Made by a program: the position numbers and the translations under genes. A stretch of DNA of 9,945 nt from Candidatus Hydrothermarchaeum profundi (GTDB lineage: Archaea > Hydrothermarchaeota > Hydrothermarchaeia > Hydrothermarchaeales > Hydrothermarchaeaceae), in NCBI GenBank assembly GCA_002011125.2, contig MTMF02000016.1:1-9945 (forward strand), in the 5' to 3' direction. Under the pieces are notes generated by a model. The model did not search any database and was not told the DNA's origin. It saw only the letters and a program-made list of their open reading frames with translations. Positions 1 to 9,732 of this stretch are shown piece by piece (position 1 is the first letter of the stretch; every line of letters starts with the position of its first letter).

Positions 1-698
1 TTCTGCCGCTTAAGCTGAGGCACCTGAGTTTTGACCACTACGGCGCCGTGCTCAGGGTTACCGGCAAGACCGGCGACAGGAGAATACGCCTGGTAGCCTC
101 TACCTTAGCGTTGCAGCGCTGGATAGAGGAGCACCCCGCAAAGAACAACCCCGACGCCTTCCTGTGGTGCAAGATTCCAACGCCCAACAACCCAAAGTGG
201 AAGAATCACCACCTGAGCTACGGTTTTGTCAGTCGCCTGCTGAAGGAGCTGGCAGCAAAGGCAGGGGTAAAGAAGAAGGTTAATCCTCATGCCTTCAGGC
301 ATGCTAGGGCTACCTTCCTGGCGAGGCATTTAAAGGAGCCTGAGATGCGGGAGTTCTTCGGCTGGGGCAAGGATTCAGAGATGCCCTCCATCTACGTCCA
401 CCTCAGCGGTAGAGACGTGGATAGCAGCGTCCTCAGCATCTACGGCATCAAGGATACGAGCAAAGCCGCTGAACCCAAGCTAAAAGCTGAGCAGTGCCCA
501 AGATGCAGAGAACCCAACGACCCTGCAAGCAGGTTCTGCCGCAGGTGCGGCCTGCCCCTCGGCAAGTTCTACAACGTCGACAAGCTCGAGGATGTGCTGC
601 TCGAGTTCCTGAAGGTGATCGCAGAAACATTCCCTGAGGTAAAGGAGAAGTTCAGGGAGGTGGTAAGAAGAAAGGGAGCGGAGGAGGTGTTTATGTGA
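1..698 (+). CDS. Tyrosine recombinase/integrase with C-terminal zinc ribbon (5'-truncated by window edge)
   Basis: C-terminal part of a phage-type integrase/XerC-D-like tyrosine recombinase, which cuts and rejoins DNA through a 3'-phosphotyrosine. The frame is open to the left edge (codons from position 3), and residues before the GTG at 48 still fit the family (LRHLSFDHYGAVLRVTGKTG), so 48 is not the true start. Counting from the codon at 48: the beta-hairpin lysine is K7, the HxxR box is H81-A-F-R84, and the nucleophile is probably Y116 in PSIYVHLSG. The usual second His/Trp position is W106 in FFGWG. The first catalytic Arg lies outside the window. After the catalytic domain comes a CxxC-x10-CxxC zinc ribbon (C150, C153, C164, C167) and a charged helix, an arrangement I associate with archaeal integrases. 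Codon choice is clearly GC-richer than in the genes to the right. It may mobilise an integrated element or be a resident recombinase. Its target site is not visible. Confidence 0.88.
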   Translation, partial: LPLKLRHLSFDHYGAVLRVTGKTGDRRIRLVASTLALQRWIEEHPAKNNPDAFLWCKIPTPNNPKWKNHHLSYGFVSRLLKELAAKAGVKKKVNPHAFRHARATFLARHLKEPEMREFFGWGKDSEMPSIYVHLSGRDVDSSVLSIYGIKDTSKAAEPKLKAEQCPRCREPNDPASRFCRRCGLPLGKFYNVDKLEDVLLEFLKVIAETFPEVKEKFREVVRRKGAEEVFM

Positions 699-739
699 GG
701 GAGATAGGGATTAATAAAATCTCTAAAAAGACATATAAA

Positions 740-762
740 AAACATAAAATTTTTGATTTTTC
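740..762 (+). terminator. Possible T-run terminator after the integrase gene
   Basis: Two T-runs (750-754 and 757-761) lie about 50 bases after the integrase stop codon. Archaeal RNA polymerase can terminate at oligo-T tracts without a strong hairpin. No stem-loop is obvious here, so this is a weak call. Confidence 0.25.
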
Positions 763-910
763 AAGAAATTAAATGTAATAAAAGCGAGATAGATACAAAG
801 GAGAGATATAAACAAAGACAGGAAATATACACATAGGTTTAAGCCTGGGGTGCAAAGTCAACATTCTTAGAATTAACGATGTTGTACCTCGTTTTCTAAC
901 GTTTATCGAC

Positions 911-926
911 CTTTCAAAGTTGAAAG
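911..926. repeat. 16-bp perfect inverted repeat in the intergenic region
   Basis: CTTTCAA-AG-TTGAAAG is fully symmetric apart from the two central bases. A dyad of this size could be an operator for a dimeric regulator, but no regulator gene is in the window and no second copy was found. The short word TTGAAAG also ends many archaeal CRISPR repeats, but there is no repeat-spacer periodicity here. Confidence 0.3.
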
Positions 927-993
927 CAAACCCTTCGTTTTTCGCGTTGCACCTCAATATTTTGCATTCCAAACCGGGCTAGCAAGGTGATGA

Positions 994-1191
994 ACCTCAG
1001 TTTTAGCGCTTCAGTACTTAAAGGTTTATTTCGAAATTTCAGAGGTAGAAAATTTTACCCGTTTTTACGCTTTTATGCTTCAAGTGAGAGATTGCGTAAT
1101 GCAGCGGGTTTATGAGCTTCTAAGGAGCTGGTGGTTGGAGGGATTTGGGAGAGAAGATGATGGTGAGGATGAAGGGGAGGCAAAAAATTGA
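994..1191 (+). other. Short open reading stretch, possible small ORF or gene relic
   Basis: The frame is free of stops from 994 to the TGA at 1189-1191, about 65 codons. The first ATG is at 1075, giving a 38-residue product (MLQVRDCVMQRVYELLRSWW then an acidic tail ending EDEGEAKN). There is no Shine-Dalgarno site before the ATG. The upstream residues (FEISEVENFTRFYAFMLQ) are not obviously random. It could be a relic of a larger gene, a small protein or a chance opening. I recognise no family. Confidence 0.12.
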
Positions 1192-1339: not shown

Positions 1340-1376
1340 CTAATAAGAACTTATTGAAAAAATAGATTCTAATAAG
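1340..1376. promoter_or_regulatory. Palindrome and direct repeat immediately upstream of hsdR, possible operator
   Basis: AATAAG-AA-CTTATT at 1342-1355 is a perfect dyad. The 8-mer CTAATAAG occurs at 1340-1347 and again at 1369-1376, a 29-base offset (close to three helical turns), and the second copy ends 8 bases before the hsdR ATG. This is a plausible binding site controlling the hsd-Argonaute-SIR2 operon, since the locus needs timed expression of modification before restriction. No regulator gene is visible. Confidence 0.28.
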
Positions 1377-1384
1377 TGGTGCTC

Positions 1385-3871
1385 ATGCTCAATGAAGCTG
1401 ACACACGAGCAAAGCTTATAGATCCAGAACTTTGGAAAAGTGGATGGGACGAAAGTAAGATAAAAAGAGATATCTACATTCCCGGCAAAATTATAGATGA
1501 AAATGGGAGGAGACAAAGACCTAAGAAGCCTGACTATGTTCTCTATTACAACCCCTACCTTCCAATAGCTGTGGTTGAGGCTAAAGAAGAAGGAAAATCC
1601 GCCTTAGATGGCATGGCACAGGCAAAGGAGTACGCCAAAAGATTGGGTGTTTTCTTTGCCTACTCCACAAATGGGCATGAAATAGAAGAGTTTGATTTTA
1701 CAACAAATATTCAGAGAACTATTGAGAGATTTCCAACACCAGAAGAGCTATACAAAAGATATTCCGAATTTGTCTTTAAACAGGAGACAAAAGTAGACCC
1801 ATTGAAATACCCTTATTACTCAGTACCGGGTGGGAAAAAGCCAAGATACTACCAAGAGGCGGCAATAAAGCGAGCTATTGAAGCAATTCTTCAGGGAAAA
1901 AAGAGAGTACTTCTAACAATGGCAACAGGCACAGGAAAAACTTTTGTCGCCTTTCAGATAGTTTGGAAGCTTTTGAATTCCGGCTACTTCCAGAGGGTTC
2001 TATATATTGCAGACAGAAACTTTCTCCGAGATCAGGCTTACAACGAATTCGCCCCCTTTGAAGATGCCAGAGCAATTATAGAGGAGGGCAACGCCCCCAA
2101 GAACAGGCAGGTTTACTTCAGCATATACCAAGCCCTCTACAGCGGCGACGAAGAAAAGAGACTCTATCGAGAGTATCCACCTGACTTTTTTGACATGGTT
2201 ATTATCGACGAGTGCCACCGATCTGGTTATGGCACGTGGAAGGAAATCCTCGACTACTTTGGAGATGCAGTACACCTCGGAATGACGGCTACGCCTAAGA
2301 GGAGCGACAACATAGACACCTACGCCTACTTTGGTAAGCCTGTGTATTCCTACAGCATGGGACAGGGAATTGAGGACGGCTTTCTTGCACCTTTCCATAT
2401 TTACCGCATCTTTACAAATATAGACAAAAAGGGTTTGCACTTGGAAGAGGCCCTTCACCAAGGTGCCAGAGTTTATATTCCTGAGGAGACGGATGTGAGG
2501 GACATCTATACACTTGAGAACTTTGAAAGGGAGATTATTCTACCGGACAGAACAAAGAAGATATGCCAGCATCTGGCGAGCCTCCTCGACAAGTTTGGAC
2601 CCTTGGAGAAAACCATTGTCTTCTGTGTTAATAGGGAGCATGCCGCACAGGTTGCCAAGGAGTTACAGAACAGCTTTGCCCATCTTGGTTACTCTGACTA
2701 TGCTGTTAGAATAGTGGCTGAGGAGAGCGATGTTAAGGAAGTTTATGAGAATTTTAAGGACTCTGAGAAAACTACCCCTGTGGTGGCAACAACTGTAGAC
2801 CTCCTAACAACGGGTGTTGATATCCCCTCAGTTAAAAATCTGGTTTTTCTGAAGCCTATAAGCTCCAAGGTTTACTTTAAGCAGCACATTGGCAGAGGTT
2901 CAAGAATAGATAAGGTTTCAAAGAAGTACTTTTTCAGGATAATAGATTATGTAAATGCGACACGCCTGCTTGATGACTGGGATTATCCCTCCGATGTGGG
3001 AGGTGCAGTAGAGGTAGAAGGCCCCTTCGACCTTGAGCTTAGGGGATTTGTGCTGCATTCTGAGACCAATGAGCCTATAGATTCAGCTACAATTAAAGCC
3101 CAGATAGCACCCAATATGCAGAGGCTTGCCAAAAGCGATGGTAGGGGTTATTTCGTGCTGGACAGGTTGCCCTGCTTTTCCATTACTCTGGTAATTTCCA
3201 AATATGGCTTCAGAACCAGGCGGGTGACCATTACCCCAAGCGAAGATATGGAGCCAATCATTGTCGAGCTTAAGCCTGAGAAGCCTAAGAGGAAGAAGAT
3301 AGTTGCAGAAGGAGTTGAGGTTTATATTGCAGAGGAGACTCAGGTCTTTATATCTTCTTCTGGAAAGACGCTGACAGACGCAGAATATAAAGAGTATTCA
3401 AAGGAGGGAGTTATCAAAAGGGTTGCCACTCTCGGAGACTTTTACAAGCTGTGGATTGATAGGGAGAAAAGGAGGAAGTTTTTGGAGGAGTTGTACAAGG
3501 AATCTATAAACCCTGAGCTTCTTGCAAATATTCTCAAAGCACCTGATGCAGATGCCTTTGATGTTCTCGCGCATGTTGCCTTTGGTGCTCCTATTTTGAC
3601 GAGAGATGAAAGGGCGAGAGCTTTTATGAACAAGAAAAAGAAAGTAATAGAAGCTCTGGGAGGCAAAGCCCAGGAAGTTGTGCTCTCTCTTCTGGAGAAG
3701 TACAAAGCAGGAGGTATTGAGCAGATTACAAGCCCAGATATATTCGAGGTGTCGCCTTTCGACAAGATGGGTTACCTCCGTGGTGTGGCTGAGATTTTTG
3801 GCGGTATTGATAAGCTTAAGGAGGCAATAGAGCTTATAGAGAAGGGAATCTACGAGAGCGTGGAGGTGTAG
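1385..3871 (+). CDS. hsdR: Type I restriction enzyme, endonuclease/translocase subunit HsdR (EcoAI/EcoEI-like)
   Basis: Motor and nuclease subunit of a type I R-M complex: it translocates DNA with ATP and cuts unmodified DNA far from the recognition site. Numbering from the ATG at 1385 (828 aa): an N-terminal PD-(D/E)XK nuclease shows D50 and E65-A-K67; Walker A is ATGTGKT at 180-186; the DEAD-like box is DECH at 275-278; motif III is TAT at 301-303; motif VI is QHIGRGSR at 500-507. A C-terminal domain resembling the EcoEI R-subunit C-terminus begins near residue 640. Residues about 549-630 form a probable carboxypeptidase-regulatory-like insert, listed separately. I chose ATG 1385 because MLNEADTRAKLIDPELW matches the usual family N-terminus; GTG at 1376 or 1379 would add two or three residues. 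It is first in an operon with hsdM, 4 bases away, and the hsdM ribosome site lies in its last codons. All key motifs are intact, so it should be active. Confidence 0.95.
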   Translation: MLNEADTRAKLIDPELWKSGWDESKIKRDIYIPGKIIDENGRRQRPKKPDYVLYYNPYLPIAVVEAKEEGKSALDGMAQAKEYAKRLGVFFAYSTNGHEIEEFDFTTNIQRTIERFPTPEELYKRYSEFVFKQETKVDPLKYPYYSVPGGKKPRYYQEAAIKRAIEAILQGKKRVLLTMATGTGKTFVAFQIVWKLLNSGYFQRVLYIADRNFLRDQAYNEFAPFEDARAIIEEGNAPKNRQVYFSIYQALYSGDEEKRLYREYPPDFFDMVIIDECHRSGYGTWKEILDYFGDAVHLGMTATPKRSDNIDTYAYFGKPVYSYSMGQGIEDGFLAPFHIYRIFTNIDKKGLHLEEALHQGARVYIPEETDVRDIYTLENFEREIILPDRTKKICQHLASLLDKFGPLEKTIVFCVNREHAAQVAKELQNSFAHLGYSDYAVRIVAEESDVKEVYENFKDSEKTTPVVATTVDLLTTGVDIPSVKNLVFLKPISSKVYFKQHIGRGSRIDKVSKKYFFRIIDYVNATRLLDDWDYPSDVGGAVEVEGPFDLELRGFVLHSETNEPIDSATIKAQIAPNMQRLAKSDGRGYFVLDRLPCFSITLVISKYGFRTRRVTITPSEDMEPIIVELKPEKPKRKKIVAEGVEVYIAEETQVFISSSGKTLTDAEYKEYSKEGVIKRVATLGDFYKLWIDREKRRKFLEELYKESINPELLANILKAPDADAFDVLAHVAFGAPILTRDERARAFMNKKKKVIEALGGKAQEVVLSLLEKYKAGGIEQITSPDIFEVSPFDKMGYLRGVAEIFGGIDKLKEAIELIEKGIYESVEV
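3029..3274 (+). other. Predicted carboxypeptidase-regulatory-like (Ig-fold) domain within HsdR
   Basis: Residues about 549-630 of HsdR carry the pattern of a CarboxypepD_reg beta-sandwich: LRGFVLHSETNEPIDSATI, then S-D-G-R-G-Y-F-V-L-D-R-L and later V-I-S-K-Y-G-F-R-T with a closing VELKPEKP strand. It lies between the end of the helicase core (YFFRIIDYVNATRLLD) and the C-terminal domain (IVAEGVEVYIAEE). The fold is usually found in secreted or surface proteins and, as far as I know, is not part of canonical HsdR. It might bind protein or DNA partners. The call rests on motif recognition, not on a search. Confidence 0.6.
3862..3868 (+). promoter_or_regulatory. hsdM: Shine-Dalgarno site that fixes the hsdM TTG start
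   Basis: GGAGGTG lies within the last codons of hsdR, 7 bases before the TTG at 3876. No ATG or GTG is nearby, and the product from this TTG (MNRRDLASKIWRACDIMRSD) matches the HsdM N-terminus, so the rare start is supported. Confidence 0.75.
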
Positions 3872-3875
3872 TTTT

Positions 3876-5393
3876 TTGAATCGCAGAGACCTTGCCAGTA
3901 AGATATGGAGAGCCTGCGACATAATGAGGAGCGATGATGGCACAACGGGCATTCTTGAGTACATGGAGCAGCTTTCATGGATGATTTTCCTCAAGGTGTT
4001 TGAGGATGTAGAGAGGAGGTTTGAAGACAAGGCTCTGTTTGAGGGAAAGCCCTACTCTCCGATTATAGAACCCCGGTTTAGATGGTCTTCGTGGGCAACC
4101 AAGGATGACAGAGAACTTGAGGAGTACTTCACCGATGAAGAGCTCAGAAACATGAGGGCAACAAATGAGCATATTTTAATTGCCTTCATTGACAGAAAGC
4201 TCTTTCCCTATCTAAAATCACTGAGAGGTTCTCCTGAGAGGGAGAGGATTGCGAGCATCTTTCAGGAGTTTCGCGGGAATAGGATGAAATCTCCCTACAA
4301 TTTGAGGGATGTAATCTCCCTCCTGAATGATATCGACTTCTACAATCCCGAGGATTCCCATGTGCTCTCTCAGGTATATGAAGAGCTTCTAATACGCATG
4401 GGCAGAGAGGGCGGGGTTGCCGGCGAATTTTACACCCCGAGACCTATTGTAAGGCTGATGGTTAAGATTGTAAATCCGCAGATTGGTGAGAGGGTTTTTG
4501 ACCCCTTCTGCGGCTCCTGCGGTTTTATTGTTGAGTCCTACAATCACATGAAGGAATCTAAGGAGCTGCTGATTGAAGACCACAGAACTCTCCAGAAGGA
4601 AACCTTCTATGGACAGGAGAAGAAGCCTCTGCCCTACTTAATAGGTGTGATGAACTGCCTGCTGCATGGACTGCTTACCCCTAACATAGTCAGAAAGAAC
4701 ACCTTGGAGGAGAATATAAGGAATATCCCTGAGAGTGAGAGGTATGATGTAATTTTAACCAATCCCCCCTTCGGCGGAAAAGAGGGCAAGCATATAAAGC
4801 AAAACTTCCCCTACCCTTCGAGCAAGACTGAGATTTTAGCCCTGCAGTATGTGATGAAGAAGCTCAAGAAGGGTGGTAGATGCGGAATTGTTGTGCCCGA
4901 AGGCATTCTCTTCAACATCTCAGAGAAAGCCTTTGTCAAAACCAAGAAGGACTTGCTGGAAAACTACAACCTCCACACAATTATAAGCCTTCCTCAGGGT
5001 GTATTCGCCAATGTAACTTCCACAGGACAGGGACCCAAGACTAATCTACTTTTCTTTGACAGAGATGGCCCCACCAAGGAAATCTGGTACTACGACTTTG
5101 CAGGCTACTCTGAAGCTGTGCTTGGAAAGAAGTACACAAAGGCAAACCCCGTTATTTACGAAGATTTGAAGGATGCCTTTGAAAAGTGGGAGAAGAGGGA
5201 AATCTCAGAGTGGTCGTGGATTACGCCAGTAGAGGAGATAGTTGAAAACGACTACGACCTCACAGCGAGGAATCCAAACAGGAAAGAGGAAATAAGCTAC
5301 AGGGAGCCTATAGAAATAGTTGAAAGCATATCCACCAAAGAAGAAGAAATTTCAAGAATTCTGAATGAGCTGAGTGCAATTCTAAGAGGCTGA
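3876..5393 (+). CDS. hsdM: Type I restriction enzyme, DNA methyltransferase subunit HsdM (N6-adenine)
   Basis: Methyltransferase subunit: transfers a methyl group from S-adenosylmethionine to adenine N6 at the site chosen by HsdS, and is also needed for restriction. The 505-aa product starts at TTG 3876. The N-terminal HsdM_N helical domain spans about 1-160 (ILEYMEQLSWMIFLKVFEDVE). The catalytic domain carries GEFYTPRPIVRLMV (183-196), the SAM-binding motif I D209-P-F-C-G-S-C-G-F217, and the gamma-class catalytic motif N296-P-P-F299 in VILTNPPFGG. The C-terminal tail (about 475-505) is a charged helix likely to contact HsdS. Motif I is slightly unusual: most relatives read C-G-[ST]-G-G-F, whereas here a Cys replaces the first Gly of the GG pair. 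It lies 4 bases after hsdR and 4 bases before hsdS. Length is ordinary for the family. Confidence 0.95.
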   Translation: MNRRDLASKIWRACDIMRSDDGTTGILEYMEQLSWMIFLKVFEDVERRFEDKALFEGKPYSPIIEPRFRWSSWATKDDRELEEYFTDEELRNMRATNEHILIAFIDRKLFPYLKSLRGSPERERIASIFQEFRGNRMKSPYNLRDVISLLNDIDFYNPEDSHVLSQVYEELLIRMGREGGVAGEFYTPRPIVRLMVKIVNPQIGERVFDPFCGSCGFIVESYNHMKESKELLIEDHRTLQKETFYGQEKKPLPYLIGVMNCLLHGLLTPNIVRKNTLEENIRNIPESERYDVILTNPPFGGKEGKHIKQNFPYPSSKTEILALQYVMKKLKKGGRCGIVVPEGILFNISEKAFVKTKKDLLENYNLHTIISLPQGVFANVTSTGQGPKTNLLFFDRDGPTKEIWYYDFAGYSEAVLGKKYTKANPVIYEDLKDAFEKWEKREISEWSWITPVEEIVENDYDLTARNPNRKEEISYREPIEIVESISTKEEEISRILNELSAILRG

Positions 5394-5397
5394 GCAA

Positions 5398-6672
5398 ATG
5401 GTTCAGACAAAATTGATTGAGTTCAAATCCACTGGAAAACAGGATAATTATGAAATCAGAGAAATGAGGGGTCCCTATCCTCTGCCAAAGGGGTGGAAGT
5501 GGGTGAGGTTAGGGGATGTAGCTTATACCACGAGTGGTGGAACTCCTAGTAGGTCTAATAAAAAATACTGGCAAAATGGAAACATTCCTTGGGTAAAGTC
5601 TGGAGAACTTGAGGATAATATAATTTATGATACAGAAGAAAAAATTACTGAAATTGGTTTAAAAAATTCAAACTGTAAGATTTTTCCTAAGGGCACATTA
5701 TTGGTAGCAATGTACGGGGCAACTGTAGGCAAAACAGCAATTTTAGGCATTGACGCAGCTACTAATCAAGCAGTATGTGCAATTTTCCCTAATAACATAA
5801 TTAATAGAGACTATATTAGATATTATCTGGTTTTTATCAGACCAAAACTTATAGAAAGAAGCAAAAATTTAGGTGGTGCTCAACCCAATATAAGTCAAGA
5901 ATTTATAAAATCCCTAAAAATCCCCATCCCCTTCCACAACGGCAAACCAGACCTCCAAGAACAAAAACGCATCGTGGCGAAAATTGAAGCCCTATTCCAA
6001 AAGCTGGACAGAGTAAAAGAGCTGAGACGCCAAGCCAAGAAAGAGGCTGAGGAGCTTTTACAGGCGGCGTTGCACAAGGTGTTTTCGAGGGCTGATGAAA
6101 AAGGTTGGAAGTGGGTGAGGTTGGGGGATGTAGCCGAGATAATTATGGGACAATCTCCACCTTCTGAAACTTATAATGATAATGGAGAAGGTTTACCATT
6201 CTATCAGGGAAAGGTAGATTTTGGCGATCTTTATCCAAGTCCAAGGATTTATTGCACATCTCCGAGTAGGGTTGCTGAGCCTCATGATATATTAATTTCA
6301 GTTAGAGCCCCAGTAGGTCCTGTAAACATTGCTAATCAGCAGTGTGGTATTGGAAGAGGTTTAGCAGCTATAAGACCTAAAAATTTGAAAAGTTTCTATG
6401 TGTTTTATTGGTTTAAATATCTCGAAGATAAGTGGAATGTTGGAGGAACAACTTTTGGGGCAATAAAGAAGCCGGATCTTATAAATCACAAACTCCCCAT
6501 TCCCTTCCGCAATGGCAAACCCGACCTCGAAGAACAAAAACGCATAGTTGCTTATCTTGATGAGATTGCGGAAAAGCAGAGGAAACTTTTAAAACTCTAT
6601 GAAGATACTGAGAGAGAGATTGAGGAGATGAGGCAGGCGATATTGAATAAGGCATTTAGGGGGGAATTGTGA
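5398..6672 (+). CDS. hsdS: Type I restriction enzyme, specificity subunit HsdS with two target-recognition domains
   Basis: Specificity subunit that selects the bipartite DNA target and bridges the methyltransferase and nuclease subunits. The 424-aa product has two half-subunits. TRD1 spans about 29-178, from PLPKGWKWVRLGDVAYTTSG to IPIPF, followed by a conserved helix (LQEQKRIVAKIEALF to about 228). TRD2 spans about 233-371, from EKGWKWVRLGDVAEIIMG to LPIPF, followed by the second helix (LEEQKRIVAYLDEI) and the usual ending QAILNKAFRGEL. The two helices form the antiparallel spacer that sets the gap between half-sites. The TRD cores are visibly more AT-rich than the conserved parts, which is typical of swapped TRDs. 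The start is ATG 5398, with AGAGG about 9 bases upstream. The stop codon overlaps the Argonaute start. The recognition sequence cannot be read from the protein by eye. Confidence 0.95.
   Translation: MVQTKLIEFKSTGKQDNYEIREMRGPYPLPKGWKWVRLGDVAYTTSGGTPSRSNKKYWQNGNIPWVKSGELEDNIIYDTEEKITEIGLKNSNCKIFPKGTLLVAMYGATVGKTAILGIDAATNQAVCAIFPNNIINRDYIRYYLVFIRPKLIERSKNLGGAQPNISQEFIKSLKIPIPFHNGKPDLQEQKRIVAKIEALFQKLDRVKELRRQAKKEAEELLQAALHKVFSRADEKGWKWVRLGDVAEIIMGQSPPSETYNDNGEGLPFYQGKVDFGDLYPSPRIYCTSPSRVAEPHDILISVRAPVGPVNIANQQCGIGRGLAAIRPKNLKSFYVFYWFKYLEDKWNVGGTTFGAIKKPDLINHKLPIPFRNGKPDLEEQKRIVAYLDEIAEKQRKLLKLYEDTEREIEEMRQAILNKAFRGEL
5491..5522 (+). repeat. HsdS conserved-segment repeat A, copy 1 (entry to TRD1)
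   Basis: This 32-base stretch encodes GWKWVRLGDVA at the start of TRD1. It matches 6103-6134 at 30 of 32 bases. Confidence 0.85.
5921..5972 (+). repeat. HsdS conserved-segment repeat B, copy 1 (exit of TRD1)
   Basis: This 52-base stretch encodes the PIPFHNGKPDLQEQKR region that leaves TRD1 and begins the first helix. It matches 6494-6545 at 47 of 52 bases. Confidence 0.85.
6103..6134 (+). repeat. HsdS conserved-segment repeat A, copy 2 (entry to TRD2)
   Basis: Second copy of the 32-base stretch at 5491-5522, at the start of TRD2, with two mismatches. The near-identity at DNA level allows recombination between half-genes. Confidence 0.85.
6494..6545 (+). repeat. HsdS conserved-segment repeat B, copy 2 (exit of TRD2)
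   Basis: Second copy of the 52-base stretch at 5921-5972 with five mismatches. Repeats A and B bracket each TRD, so a TRD can be exchanged as a cassette by homologous recombination. Confidence 0.85.
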
Positions 6673-8594
6673 TGATAGAGAATGGAATTTATGCAAGAAA
6701 TATGATAAGACTTAATTTTTTGCCACTTTCGGAGCAAAATTTTGAATTTAAAGTATATAGAAAAAAACATGCGGGTGAAAGAAAAGAGGGCGAGTTTGAA
6801 AATTTATATCTAAATACACTACCAATTGATCCGAACAAAACCGAAGATCGTGAAAAATATTGGATTTCTTTTGAACCAAAAAATGATTTTGAAGAATTTA
6901 TATGCAAACAAGACCATAATCATAAACTTACGCAACATTTGTTATTCTCTCTGTTGACAAAGAAAGCAAAGGAATCTTTAGCGAGTAAGGAATATATCAT
7001 ACCAGAAAAAATATTTAGAAGGCAGATTTATTTTGTATTGAGAGAACACAAAGAAGGAAAAGAGACAGTATGGCTAGAACCATATTATCTAAAGCCAAAA
7101 AGGAAATTTGGTTTCCTTGTAGATTTTAAATTTCGCAAAAATCCTGAAGTTGAATTCTCAAGAGTAGTCCAAATGTTGAGTCTCAGTCTAGATAAAGATT
7201 TTAGAAGTAATCGAAATTTTTACATAGATAAATATCAGAAAATCAGAGAATTTTTAAATAAATTCAGAGATAAAATCTTTCCTCTTAAATTCGGAGAATT
7301 AGAAATTGATATTTTAGTAGATTTTGAAGATTTACCATATGGTAATTTAGATATTAAGAACTATATATTCGCTAATAACAATAAGGAAATTTCGCAATAT
7401 CGTGGATTAGAGAAATATGGTCCTTTAGAGGAAGTGAAAAAAGATGTAATATTTGTTTGTATTTATAGAGATGAAGATAGATATCTTTTAGATGATTTAA
7501 TCAATGCATTAAATGGAAAATCGCATATAGTCCCATTTAAGGGTGTTAAAAGAATATTCAATCTAAATGTAACAGATACTGTATATATCCCACTTCACGA
7601 TTTTTCCAAAGAAAGTTTAGATGAAGCAATAAATAGTATAATCTCTATTAAACAAGAAAATAATAGTGTTTTGGTGATGCCTATTTTCATAATGGATAAA
7701 AATGATGAAGACACTTACTATTATTTAAAATATATGTTACTTAACGAAAATATGCCAATTCAGGTGGTAACTGTAGATCTTCTTAGGAGGAGGAGTGCCT
7801 TTAAATGGTCTATTTCTAATATTGCTTTACAAATTTTTGCTAAGCTTGGTGGAAAACCATGGCAGGTATTACCAAGTCATAAAGACTCTATTATTTTAGG
7901 TATTGGACAGGCACATAAAAAAATTGGAGATAAGATTGTAAAATATTTTGCATATTCAGTTTGTACTGATTCTAGCGGTATATACAAAAAAATAGATGTA
8001 CTTGGAAAGTCTGATGACGAAAAAAGTTATTTAGAGCAACTAAGAGAGAATATTCTAGATGTTATTGAAGAGAATATAAATGGTAGTCATAAAAAAATTA
8101 TTTTGCATATACCGTTTAAAATAAAAAAGAATGAGTTGGAAACGATTAATGGAGCATTAAAAGAAATAGCAAGTCAAAATAACAGCGATATAGATTTTGT
8201 TGTATTAAAGGTGAATCAGAAAAATAAATTCTTTGGTTACGCTTATACAAATAGTTTAGTTCCTTATGAAAGCTCATATGTTGTATTATCAAACAATCCA
8301 AAAGAATATTTAGTATGGTTTGAAGGTTTACAATATCATCGAGAAACTATTTATAAAAGGATACCAGGACCCATCCACATAGAATTTTATTGGAGCAATA
8401 GGAAACTTACTGAAGATGAACGAATAAAATATCTACAAGATGTTTTAAATTTATCTGGAGCAAATTGGAGAGGATTCAATGCAAAAAACTTGCCAATATC
8501 AATTTATTATTGTCAATTAATAGCCAATTTTCTGAAAAAGTTTCCTGAAGATGTAGAAAATATAGAACATATACCAGCGCCGTGGTTCCTATAG
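6672..8594 (+). CDS. Prokaryotic Argonaute, AfAgo-like/long-B type, PAZ-less and predicted catalytically inactive
   Basis: Guide-binding Argonaute, expected to load a short nucleic-acid guide and recognise invader nucleic acid. Numbering from ATG 6672 (640 aa). Residues about 1-245 look like N/L1/L2 sequence (FRRQIYFVLREH, FGFLVDFKFRKN, VVQMLSLSLDKDFRSN). RGLEKYGPLEE leads into MID (about 250-400) and PIWI (about 400-640, ending APWFL). Compared from memory with A. fulgidus AfAgo, the 5'-phosphate pocket Y123/K127/Q137/K163 aligns with Y349, K353, Q364 and K391 (in AKLGGKPW). The first PIWI aspartate is lost: the strand reads ILGIGQAH, like AfAgo IIGTGATR. The second-Asp strand reads ILHIPFKI, also without Asp, so slicing is not expected. 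ANWRGFNAKNLPISI and the C-terminal Leu are conserved. No PAZ is evident, and the length roughly equals AfAgo plus its separate N-L1-L2 partner fused. The start forms TGATG with the hsdS stop; GTG 6669 would add one residue. Codon use is much more AT-rich than hsdRMS. Confidence 0.88.
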   Translation: MIENGIYARNMIRLNFLPLSEQNFEFKVYRKKHAGERKEGEFENLYLNTLPIDPNKTEDREKYWISFEPKNDFEEFICKQDHNHKLTQHLLFSLLTKKAKESLASKEYIIPEKIFRRQIYFVLREHKEGKETVWLEPYYLKPKRKFGFLVDFKFRKNPEVEFSRVVQMLSLSLDKDFRSNRNFYIDKYQKIREFLNKFRDKIFPLKFGELEIDILVDFEDLPYGNLDIKNYIFANNNKEISQYRGLEKYGPLEEVKKDVIFVCIYRDEDRYLLDDLINALNGKSHIVPFKGVKRIFNLNVTDTVYIPLHDFSKESLDEAINSIISIKQENNSVLVMPIFIMDKNDEDTYYYLKYMLLNENMPIQVVTVDLLRRRSAFKWSISNIALQIFAKLGGKPWQVLPSHKDSIILGIGQAHKKIGDKIVKYFAYSVCTDSSGIYKKIDVLGKSDDEKSYLEQLRENILDVIEENINGSHKKIILHIPFKIKKNELETINGALKEIASQNNSDIDFVVLKVNQKNKFFGYAYTNSLVPYESSYVVLSNNPKEYLVWFEGLQYHRETIYKRIPGPIHIEFYWSNRKLTEDERIKYLQDVLNLSGANWRGFNAKNLPISIYYCQLIANFLKKFPEDVENIEHIPAPWFL

Positions 8595-8599
8595 GGGGT
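8594..8599 (+). promoter_or_regulatory. Shine-Dalgarno site deciding the GTG start of the SIR2 gene
   Basis: GGGGGT overlaps the last base of the Argonaute stop codon and lies 7 bases before GTG 8607. An ATG at 8605 is in a different frame and gives no SIR2 product, so GTG 8607 is preferred. Confidence 0.6.
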
Positions 8600-8606
8600 A
8601 ATAAAT

Positions 8607-9608
8607 GTGTTTAGAGAAGATGAGATAATAATTCTAATCGGCGCAGGATGTAGCGCAGATGCGGGAATACCAACATCTACACAAATGGTGAAAAAAGTTG
8701 AAAATCTTATAAAAAATAATAGAGAATGGGAAAAATATATTGATATATTTAATTACGTCAAAAGTGCTATTTTATATGTAGACGGAATAAAAGGAAGTTT
8801 TGGAAATAATTTTGACATTGAAAGACTAGTTAATGTTCTTGGTGAATTAGAGAAGAAAGAAAACAGCATTTTATATCCATTTATTGGAAGTTGGAGCCCA
8901 AGATTATTAGAAATTGCTGGCTATGATTTCGGTATTATCAGAGAATTTAAACAAAAAATATTAAAAGAATTAACAAAATGGGTTCGTAAATCTAATTATT
9001 ATAGGAAGTTTTTTGAATTTGCCCGTGAGTATACATATCCATTAAGAATTTTCTCTTTGAATTATGATATTTGCATTGAAAAAAATAAGCCATCTGGAAT
9101 AGATCTTGAAAGAGGTTTTGATCCAGAAACAAAAACTTGGGATTGGAGGAGATTCGAACGTAGTGAAGTATATGAACCTGCAATCTATTTGTACAAACTT
9201 CATGGTTCTATTGATTGGAAAAGGGACAAAAAGGAAGGCAATATCCTGAAAGAAGTTGATAGAATTCCAGAAGAACCGGATCTAATTTTCGGTACCGACT
9301 ATAAAATGCAATATGTTGATCCTTATTTATTTTATGCATATGAATTTAGAAAATATTCCTTAGAAGCTAGAGTTATTATTATAATCGGATATAGCTTTGG
9401 GGATGAGCATATAAACAGTATATTAAAGCAGGCACTCGATAATAGAAATGATCGAAAATTGTTAATAGTTTCCCCAAGAATAGATGAAGACTATATTGTA
9501 AGTAGATTACATTGTAACGATAAAAAACAAGTTATTGTCGTGAATAAAAGAGCTAGTGAGTTTCTAAATGAATTACATATAGAAACTCTAGAAAATTGGT
9601 TAAACTAA
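8607..9608 (+). CDS. SIR2-family NAD+-hydrolase effector paired with the Argonaute
   Basis: SIR2_2-type protein of 333 aa, expected to hydrolyse NAD+ when activated and so stop growth of an infected cell. The N-terminus enters the Rossmann fold at once: IIILIGAGCSADAGIPTS, with the GAGxS signature at 12-16. FSLNYD (149-154) supplies the catalytic Asn N152 and D154. YKLHGSIDW (196-204) supplies the catalytic His H199. IIIIGYSFGDEHINSIL (257-273) is the C-terminal nucleotide-binding motif. All residues needed for NADase activity in defence SIR2 proteins such as ThsA or SPARSA appear present. Unlike SIR2-APAZ proteins, it is little longer than one SIR2 domain and shows no APAZ, fitting a partner Argonaute that already has its own N/L domains. 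It is 12 bases after the Argonaute stop, shares its AT-rich codon use and is surely co-transcribed. A target other than NAD+ cannot be excluded. Confidence 0.9.
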   Translation: MFREDEIIILIGAGCSADAGIPTSTQMVKKVENLIKNNREWEKYIDIFNYVKSAILYVDGIKGSFGNNFDIERLVNVLGELEKKENSILYPFIGSWSPRLLEIAGYDFGIIREFKQKILKELTKWVRKSNYYRKFFEFAREYTYPLRIFSLNYDICIEKNKPSGIDLERGFDPETKTWDWRRFERSEVYEPAIYLYKLHGSIDWKRDKKEGNILKEVDRIPEEPDLIFGTDYKMQYVDPYLFYAYEFRKYSLEARVIIIIGYSFGDEHINSILKQALDNRNDRKLLIVSPRIDEDYIVSRLHCNDKKQVIVVNKRASEFLNELHIETLENWLN

Positions 9609-9671: not shown

Positions 9672-9711
9672 GAGCAAGCGATATTGAGTAAGGCATTTAA
9701 GGGAGTTGTGA
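9672..9711 (+). pseudogene. Relic of a second hsdS 3' end
   Basis: Bases 9674-9711 align with the last 40 bases of hsdS (6633-6672) at 34 positions, with 4 mismatches and one 2-base gap. In the matching frame it reads EQAILSKAFKG, against RQAILNKAFRG in the intact HsdS. The expected GEL-stop is broken by the 2-base deletion, so the frame continues as VVRLLLLNFRG to a later stop. Nothing upstream of about 9670 resembles HsdS. It is therefore a fragment of another hsdS, or of a duplication made when the Argonaute-SIR2 block arrived. Confidence 0.7.
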
Positions 9712-9732
9712 GATTATTGTTGCTTAATTTTA

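Follow-up and report, generated by a model that had tools for sequence, protein, structure and literature searches.

The Argonaute (Ago) and SIR2 genes in this stretch of archaeal DNA form a module of a type that has been described in bacteria, and PADLOC models exactly such a pair. By analogy with GbBPAS, the pair is very probably a PAZ-less BPAS that confers abortive infection through guide-directed NAD+ depletion, in a cassette that would have been acquired horizontally at the end of an hsdRMS operon. This reading is built on the domain content, the 5'-phosphate pocket of the Ago, the loss of its catalytic residues and PAZ domain, the NADase-type pocket of the SIR2 protein, the conserved linkage of the two genes and their co-divergence. 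Unusual are its apparent acquisition from elsewhere and its location: the module lies directly behind, and overlaps, the last gene of a complete R-M operon.

Contig, host and gene order

The window (the whole stretch analysed) is an entire 9945-bp contig in a 2.19-Mb archaeal metagenome bin with a completeness of 97.65% and a contamination of 1.46%. Five genes on the + strand (hsdR, hsdM, hsdS, ago and sir2) are separated by 4, 4, −1 and 12 nt (Table 1). The coordinates, strand, gene order and ago-sir2 spacing given in the earlier note were all correct, and both target frames are intact. Translation of ago most likely starts at the ATG at 6672, and that of sir2 starts at the GTG at 8607. The hsdRMS operon fused upstream was absent from the earlier note and is the less expected part.

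Table 1. Features of the 9945-bp window
Feature	Position	Strand	Remarks
Tyrosine integrase, 3' part	48..698	+	C-terminal zinc ribbon; 98% identity to that of an archaeal order-level relative
HsdR, EcoAI/FtnUII-family type I restriction subunit	1376..3871	+	NF046051, 775 bits (cutoff 550); 4 nt before hsdM
HsdM, type I methyltransferase	3876..5393	+	4 nt before hsdS
HsdS, specificity subunit	5398..6672	+	Stop TGA 6670-6672 overlaps Ago ATG 6672
hsdS 3' end, copy 1 of 44-nt direct repeat	6633..6676	+	
Argonaute, 640 aa	6672..8594	+	N-L1-L2 (about 1-227, no PAZ), MID, inactive PIWI; YKQK pocket
SIR2_2 effector, 333 aa	8607..9608	+	GTG start after GGGGGT; no APAZ, no Zn-ribbon cysteine pairs
SIR2 catalytic Asn152	9060..9062	+	
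SIR2 catalytic His199	9201..9203	+	
hsdS 3' end, copy 2 of repeat	9674..9717	+	Decayed (80%), just past sir2; repeats bracket the ago-sir2 cassette

The contig is short and metagenome-binned, which was counted against the preferred explanation. Its integrase is 98% identical to the copy in the order-level archaeal relative (G007) and 71–78% identical to copies on the main contig of the host, and its hsd genes are 80–97% identical to those of archaeal genomes. These matches rule out a mis-binned bacterial contig and indicate an archaeal one, possibly from a related archaeon. The DNA of window positions 1–1139 is 89% identical to G007 (L115, G007:C38) across the integrase and for some 440 bp past it. 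Where the window has hsdRMS-ago-sir2, G007 has genes for an AAA (McrB-like) protein and McrC behind the integrase; the same integrase is thus accompanied by other defence cargo.

The host had been taken for a probable thermophilic archaeon, of which the archaeal part stands and the thermophily was not established. No reverse gyrase above the cutoff was found in the host, so hyperthermophily is unsupported, and the GC content of the 16S fragment is 59.7%. Hyperthermophily is unlikely and moderate thermophily possible; the data would be consistent with anything from a mesophile to a moderate thermophile.

The Argonaute, its SIR2 partner and their relatives

The Ago has Piwi (E=3e-22) as the sole Pfam family over cutoff, and its partner matches SIR2_2 (E=4e-12). 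Both proteins match PADLOC models over their full length and well past chance, i.e. class II pAgo (pAgo_II, PDLC02381) with 712 bits over Ago residues 11–640 and class II Aga_SIR2 (PDLC02408) with 427 bits over residues 1–331 of the partner. Sequence similarity to Agos in the PDB decreases from AfAgo to EcAgo and RsAgo (long-B), a short pAgo and, last, long-A proteins. The assignment to long-B rather than SPARSA in the earlier note is backed by the HMMs, the predicted structure, the YK (not HK) pocket, the separate SIR2 protein without APAZ and the tree. Long-A and SPARSA readings are ruled out by tree, pocket and domain content.

The Y-K-Q-K pocket is intact: Y349, K353, Q364 and K391 align with Y123, K127, Q137 and K163 of AfAgo, and the last three are invariant in an alignment of 44 long-B sequences. 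In an alignment with long-A proteins the catalytic Asp of GLDV is replaced by G412 and that of HRDG by P481, and that of YYAD is missing; the fourth tetrad site has no acidic residue. The N-L1-L2 domains are carried by the Ago itself, as seen from the model and the junction alignment. The L1–L2 junction measures 44 residues in the clade of the window, compared to 140–170 in most long-A, 127–131 in Rs/Ec-type long-B and about 70–107 in most other long-B proteins. This indicates that PAZ was lost outright rather than shortened, and the AlphaFold2 model (mean pLDDT 92.8, pTM 0.90) agrees. Residues 221–640 of the model match AfAgo with a Z of 37.8 (rmsd 2.6, 383 aligned), and 570 residues match RsAgo with a Z of 32.8 (rmsd 3.2).

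The catalytic Asn and His of the partner (N152 and H199) are kept and are invariant in 28 sequences. The 333-aa protein is SIR2 from end to end, which leaves no space for APAZ, and it has no CxxC pairs; it therefore lacks the zinc ribbon found in deacetylase sirtuins. The structures closest to the SIR2 model (mean pLDDT 87.4) are PsSIR2 and the antiphage complexes of SIR2 with HerA (Z 25.5 and 25.2); some true sirtuins also match, at a lower Z of 15–18. ThsA, which is named in papers as a similar SIR2, does not appear in the list of top PDB matches to the model, and this was counted against the preferred explanation.

In a tree of MID-PIWI sequences the window Ago falls in a clade of 16 rows with a support of 100/100. 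This clade lies within a long-B group (97/87) that also contains RsAgo, EcAgo and AfAgo and is separate from long-A and short pAgos, in line with the earlier placement. The sister of the window Ago is an Ago from a Syntrophobacterales bin (100/99; 55% identity over the whole protein). A scan of genome contigs with the single sequence detected no relatives; an alignment-based scan found close ones in Thermodesulfobacteriota, Chloroflexota, Acidobacteriota, Chlorobiota, Bacteroidota and Bacillota, and further ones on Leptolyngbya and Hymenobacter plasmids. The SIR2 gene starts −13 to +21 nt from the ago stop in every complete clade locus examined (including L158). Ago and SIR2 distances are correlated: the Mantel r is 0.71 for 14 core pairs, a value reached in 1 of 5000 permutations, and 0.86 for 27 pairs, reached in 0 of 5000; common host ancestry can raise such a correlation too, but the clade does not branch along host phyla. 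Within the samples of archaea searched (392 genomes from the phylum of a haloarchaeal relative, 279 from that of another archaeal bin and 23 from the host phylum) no second archaeal member of the clade was found, while a more distant BPAS is present in at least one archaeal bin (L040). Neither phages nor viral contigs gave a match to the module, and a phage origin was ruled out on this ground.

Several of the related loci have features of their own. Besides a related integrase (45%), the contig of the closest relative, the Syntrophobacterales bin (L015/L125, G023:C295), carries a Cdc6-like AAA protein, a HerA-like ATPase and pgk-tpiA; it may represent an archaeal-type element residing in a bacterium, or may be chimeric or mis-binned. 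At L015 12142–13362 a 406-aa ORF with no Pfam or PADLOC match lies between sir2 and hsdM. In Anoxybacillus (L024 4231–10275, and L025) roughly 4 kb resembling a cadmium-resistance insertion separate the N part of ago from MID-PIWI; the MID-PIWI frame and sir2 are still open. The SIR2 partner on the Leptolyngbya plasmid (L007 9938–10852) matches to about residue 252 and differs in its C-terminal part; the gene is probably frameshifted, and an IS1-type element is located nearby.

Probable acquisition of the cassette and the hsdS junction

The GC content is 0.285 for ago and 0.298 for sir2, against 0.44–0.46 for hsdR and hsdM and about 0.43–0.445 for chromosomal stretches, and the window Ago is nested among bacteria in the tree. 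The AT-rich composition and the tree position point to horizontal acquisition of ago-sir2, set at the end of the type I R-M operon; given this location the two genes are probably co-transcribed with hsdRMS. The ago ATG and the hsdS TGA overlap by one base. Just behind sir2 lies a second copy, 80% identical, of 44 nt from the hsdS 3' end, and the cassette is thus bracketed by hsdS ends.

Related hsd loci show this junction with and without an Argonaute. In G348, from the phylum of the haloarchaeal relative, hsdM and hsdR are 97% and 93.5% identical to those of the window and no Argonaute follows hsdS; this copy is on a 6.3-kb contig that could be mis-binned itself. G191 (hsdM 80% identical) also has no Argonaute after hsdS. 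Save for the hsdS 3' end, the DNA 3' of hsdS in these Ago-less relatives has no match to the window 3' of sir2, and a precise empty site is therefore not seen. In G275 (hsdM 80% identical) hsdS is followed by a 245-aa ORF whose ATG overlaps the hsdS TAA, a MID-PIWI-only Argonaute and a HEPN effector (PADLOC Aga_HEPN, 299 bits). The 245-aa ORF has no PDB sequence match, and its identity as the putative N-terminal partner of a split Ago is based on position and size. Two different inactive long-B modules (SIR2 type in the window, split Ago-HEPN in G275) thus occupy one place behind related hsdS genes, in two cases only. Between hsdM and hsdS, G275 (L157 6213–8448) contains 397-, 191- and 158-aa ORFs, as does G191 (L181); one is weakly SocA/Panacea-like and the others have no Pfam match. 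HsdS was listed among pAgo-operon proteins by Ryazansky et al. 2018 (PMC6299218), and the association as such is therefore not new; for an overlapping hsdS-ago junction no report was found in the open-licence literature.

Proposed function and relation to known systems

In the proposed mechanism, the YKQK pocket of the Ago would hold a short 5'-phosphorylated guide, probably an RNA, as AfAgo, RsAgo and characterised long-B systems suggest. The Ago would pair the guide with invader DNA without cutting it, and target binding would free or activate the SIR2 protein, which would then hydrolyse NAD+, so that the infected cell stops or dies. What we infer here from characterised systems are the types of guide and target, the formation of a complex, the NADase activity and the abortive outcome. 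GbBPAS depletes NAD+ on plasmid sensing (PMC10620215), Ala substitution of the corresponding Asn abolishes the NADase activity of ThsA (PMC10620215), and full AfAgo performs RNA-guided DNA binding (PMC10954474). No experiment on the PAZ-less clade was found in the literature, and activation may therefore differ from that of GbBPAS.

In principle, the Ago could be chiefly an antitoxin-like inhibitor of SIR2 in an addiction module, with a trigger other than guide-target pairing (e.g. Ago loss or host DNA damage). The GbBPAS SIR2 is toxic alone and is suppressed by its Ago (PMC10620215), and the pair occurs on plasmids; however, the invariant K353, Q364 and K391 argue that guide binding is retained, and we regard this explanation as improbable. 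Even less credence is given to a SIR2 that acts as nuclease or deacetylase instead of NADase. pAgo-linked SIR2 was predicted to be a nuclease in early papers (PMC2743648), and some true sirtuins are found among the weaker structural matches, but the zinc ribbon is lacking, the closest structures are antiphage SIR2, and GbBPAS depletes NAD+ (PMC10620215).

The R-M operon and the Ago-SIR2 pair could also be one layered system, in which restriction products or restriction failure feed or trigger the Ago. The close same-strand spacing of the five genes, the presence of another type of inactive Ago module at this junction in a second archaeal locus (G275) and R-M genes near the cassette in L008, L015, L019 and L021 are in favour of such coupling. 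However, other members of the clade have the cassette without an adjoining R-M operon, near-identical hsd loci lack the cassette, and no hsd genes lie next to AfAgo or its Halobellus relative. Defence genes form clusters in any case, and the hsdS 3' end might be no more than a recombination site. A layered system is rather unlikely. A broader proposal, which we consider doubtful to a similar degree, is that the hsdS-end slot of archaeal type I R-M operons repeatedly takes inactive Ago suicide modules (SIR2 here, split Ago-HEPN in G275) that are translated with HsdS, giving two coupled layers of which the second would kill the cell when the first fails.

As a PAZ-less BPAS, the module would extend NAD+-depleting Argonaute immunity of the BPAS type, predicted here, to another archaeal lineage. 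New are the archaeal member of the PAZ-less clade (the sole one found in the samples searched), the extent of PAZ loss measured across long-B proteins, and the hsdS junction with the module present, absent or replaced. A coherent subfamily with complete PAZ loss can help to study how a guide is bound in the absence of this domain. The hsdS junction offers a concrete, testable case for R-M/Argonaute co-operation, with natural loci that have the module, lack it or have a different one; a link between restriction and Argonaute is possible.

Of the known systems, BPAS (long-B pAgo with bAgaS, e.g. GbBPAS; PMC10620215) is like the window in having an inactive long-B Ago followed, in the same gene order, by a separate SIR2_2 protein with the conserved Asn. 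The window has all of these traits: the long-B clade, the lost tetrad, SIR2_2 directly downstream, and Asn and His kept. It differs in the absence of PAZ (a junction of 44 residues versus about 70–90 in the majority of the more distantly related SIR2-linked long-B Agos compared), in its archaeal host and in the placement behind hsdS. PDLC02381 and PDLC02408 represent the same subfamily as the window pair; they are known as database models only, and no functional test of them was found in the literature. SPARSA shares the inactive PIWI and the SIR2 effector, but consists of a short pAgo, with an HK-type pocket in those compared, and a SIR2-APAZ fusion; the window Ago is longer than MID-PIWI and its SIR2 is not fused to APAZ. 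The AfAgo/AfAgo-N/Af1317 system (PMC10954474) is likewise PAZ-less long-B with a YKQK pocket, and provides the closest MID-PIWI structure. The term AfAgo-like, used in the earlier note, therefore holds for the MID-PIWI fold but not for the architecture: AfAgo is made of two chains, has a different, non-SIR2 partner downstream and branches outside the window clade, whereas that clade is single-chain, PAZ-less and SIR2-linked, and the window Ago is one open frame of 640 codons.
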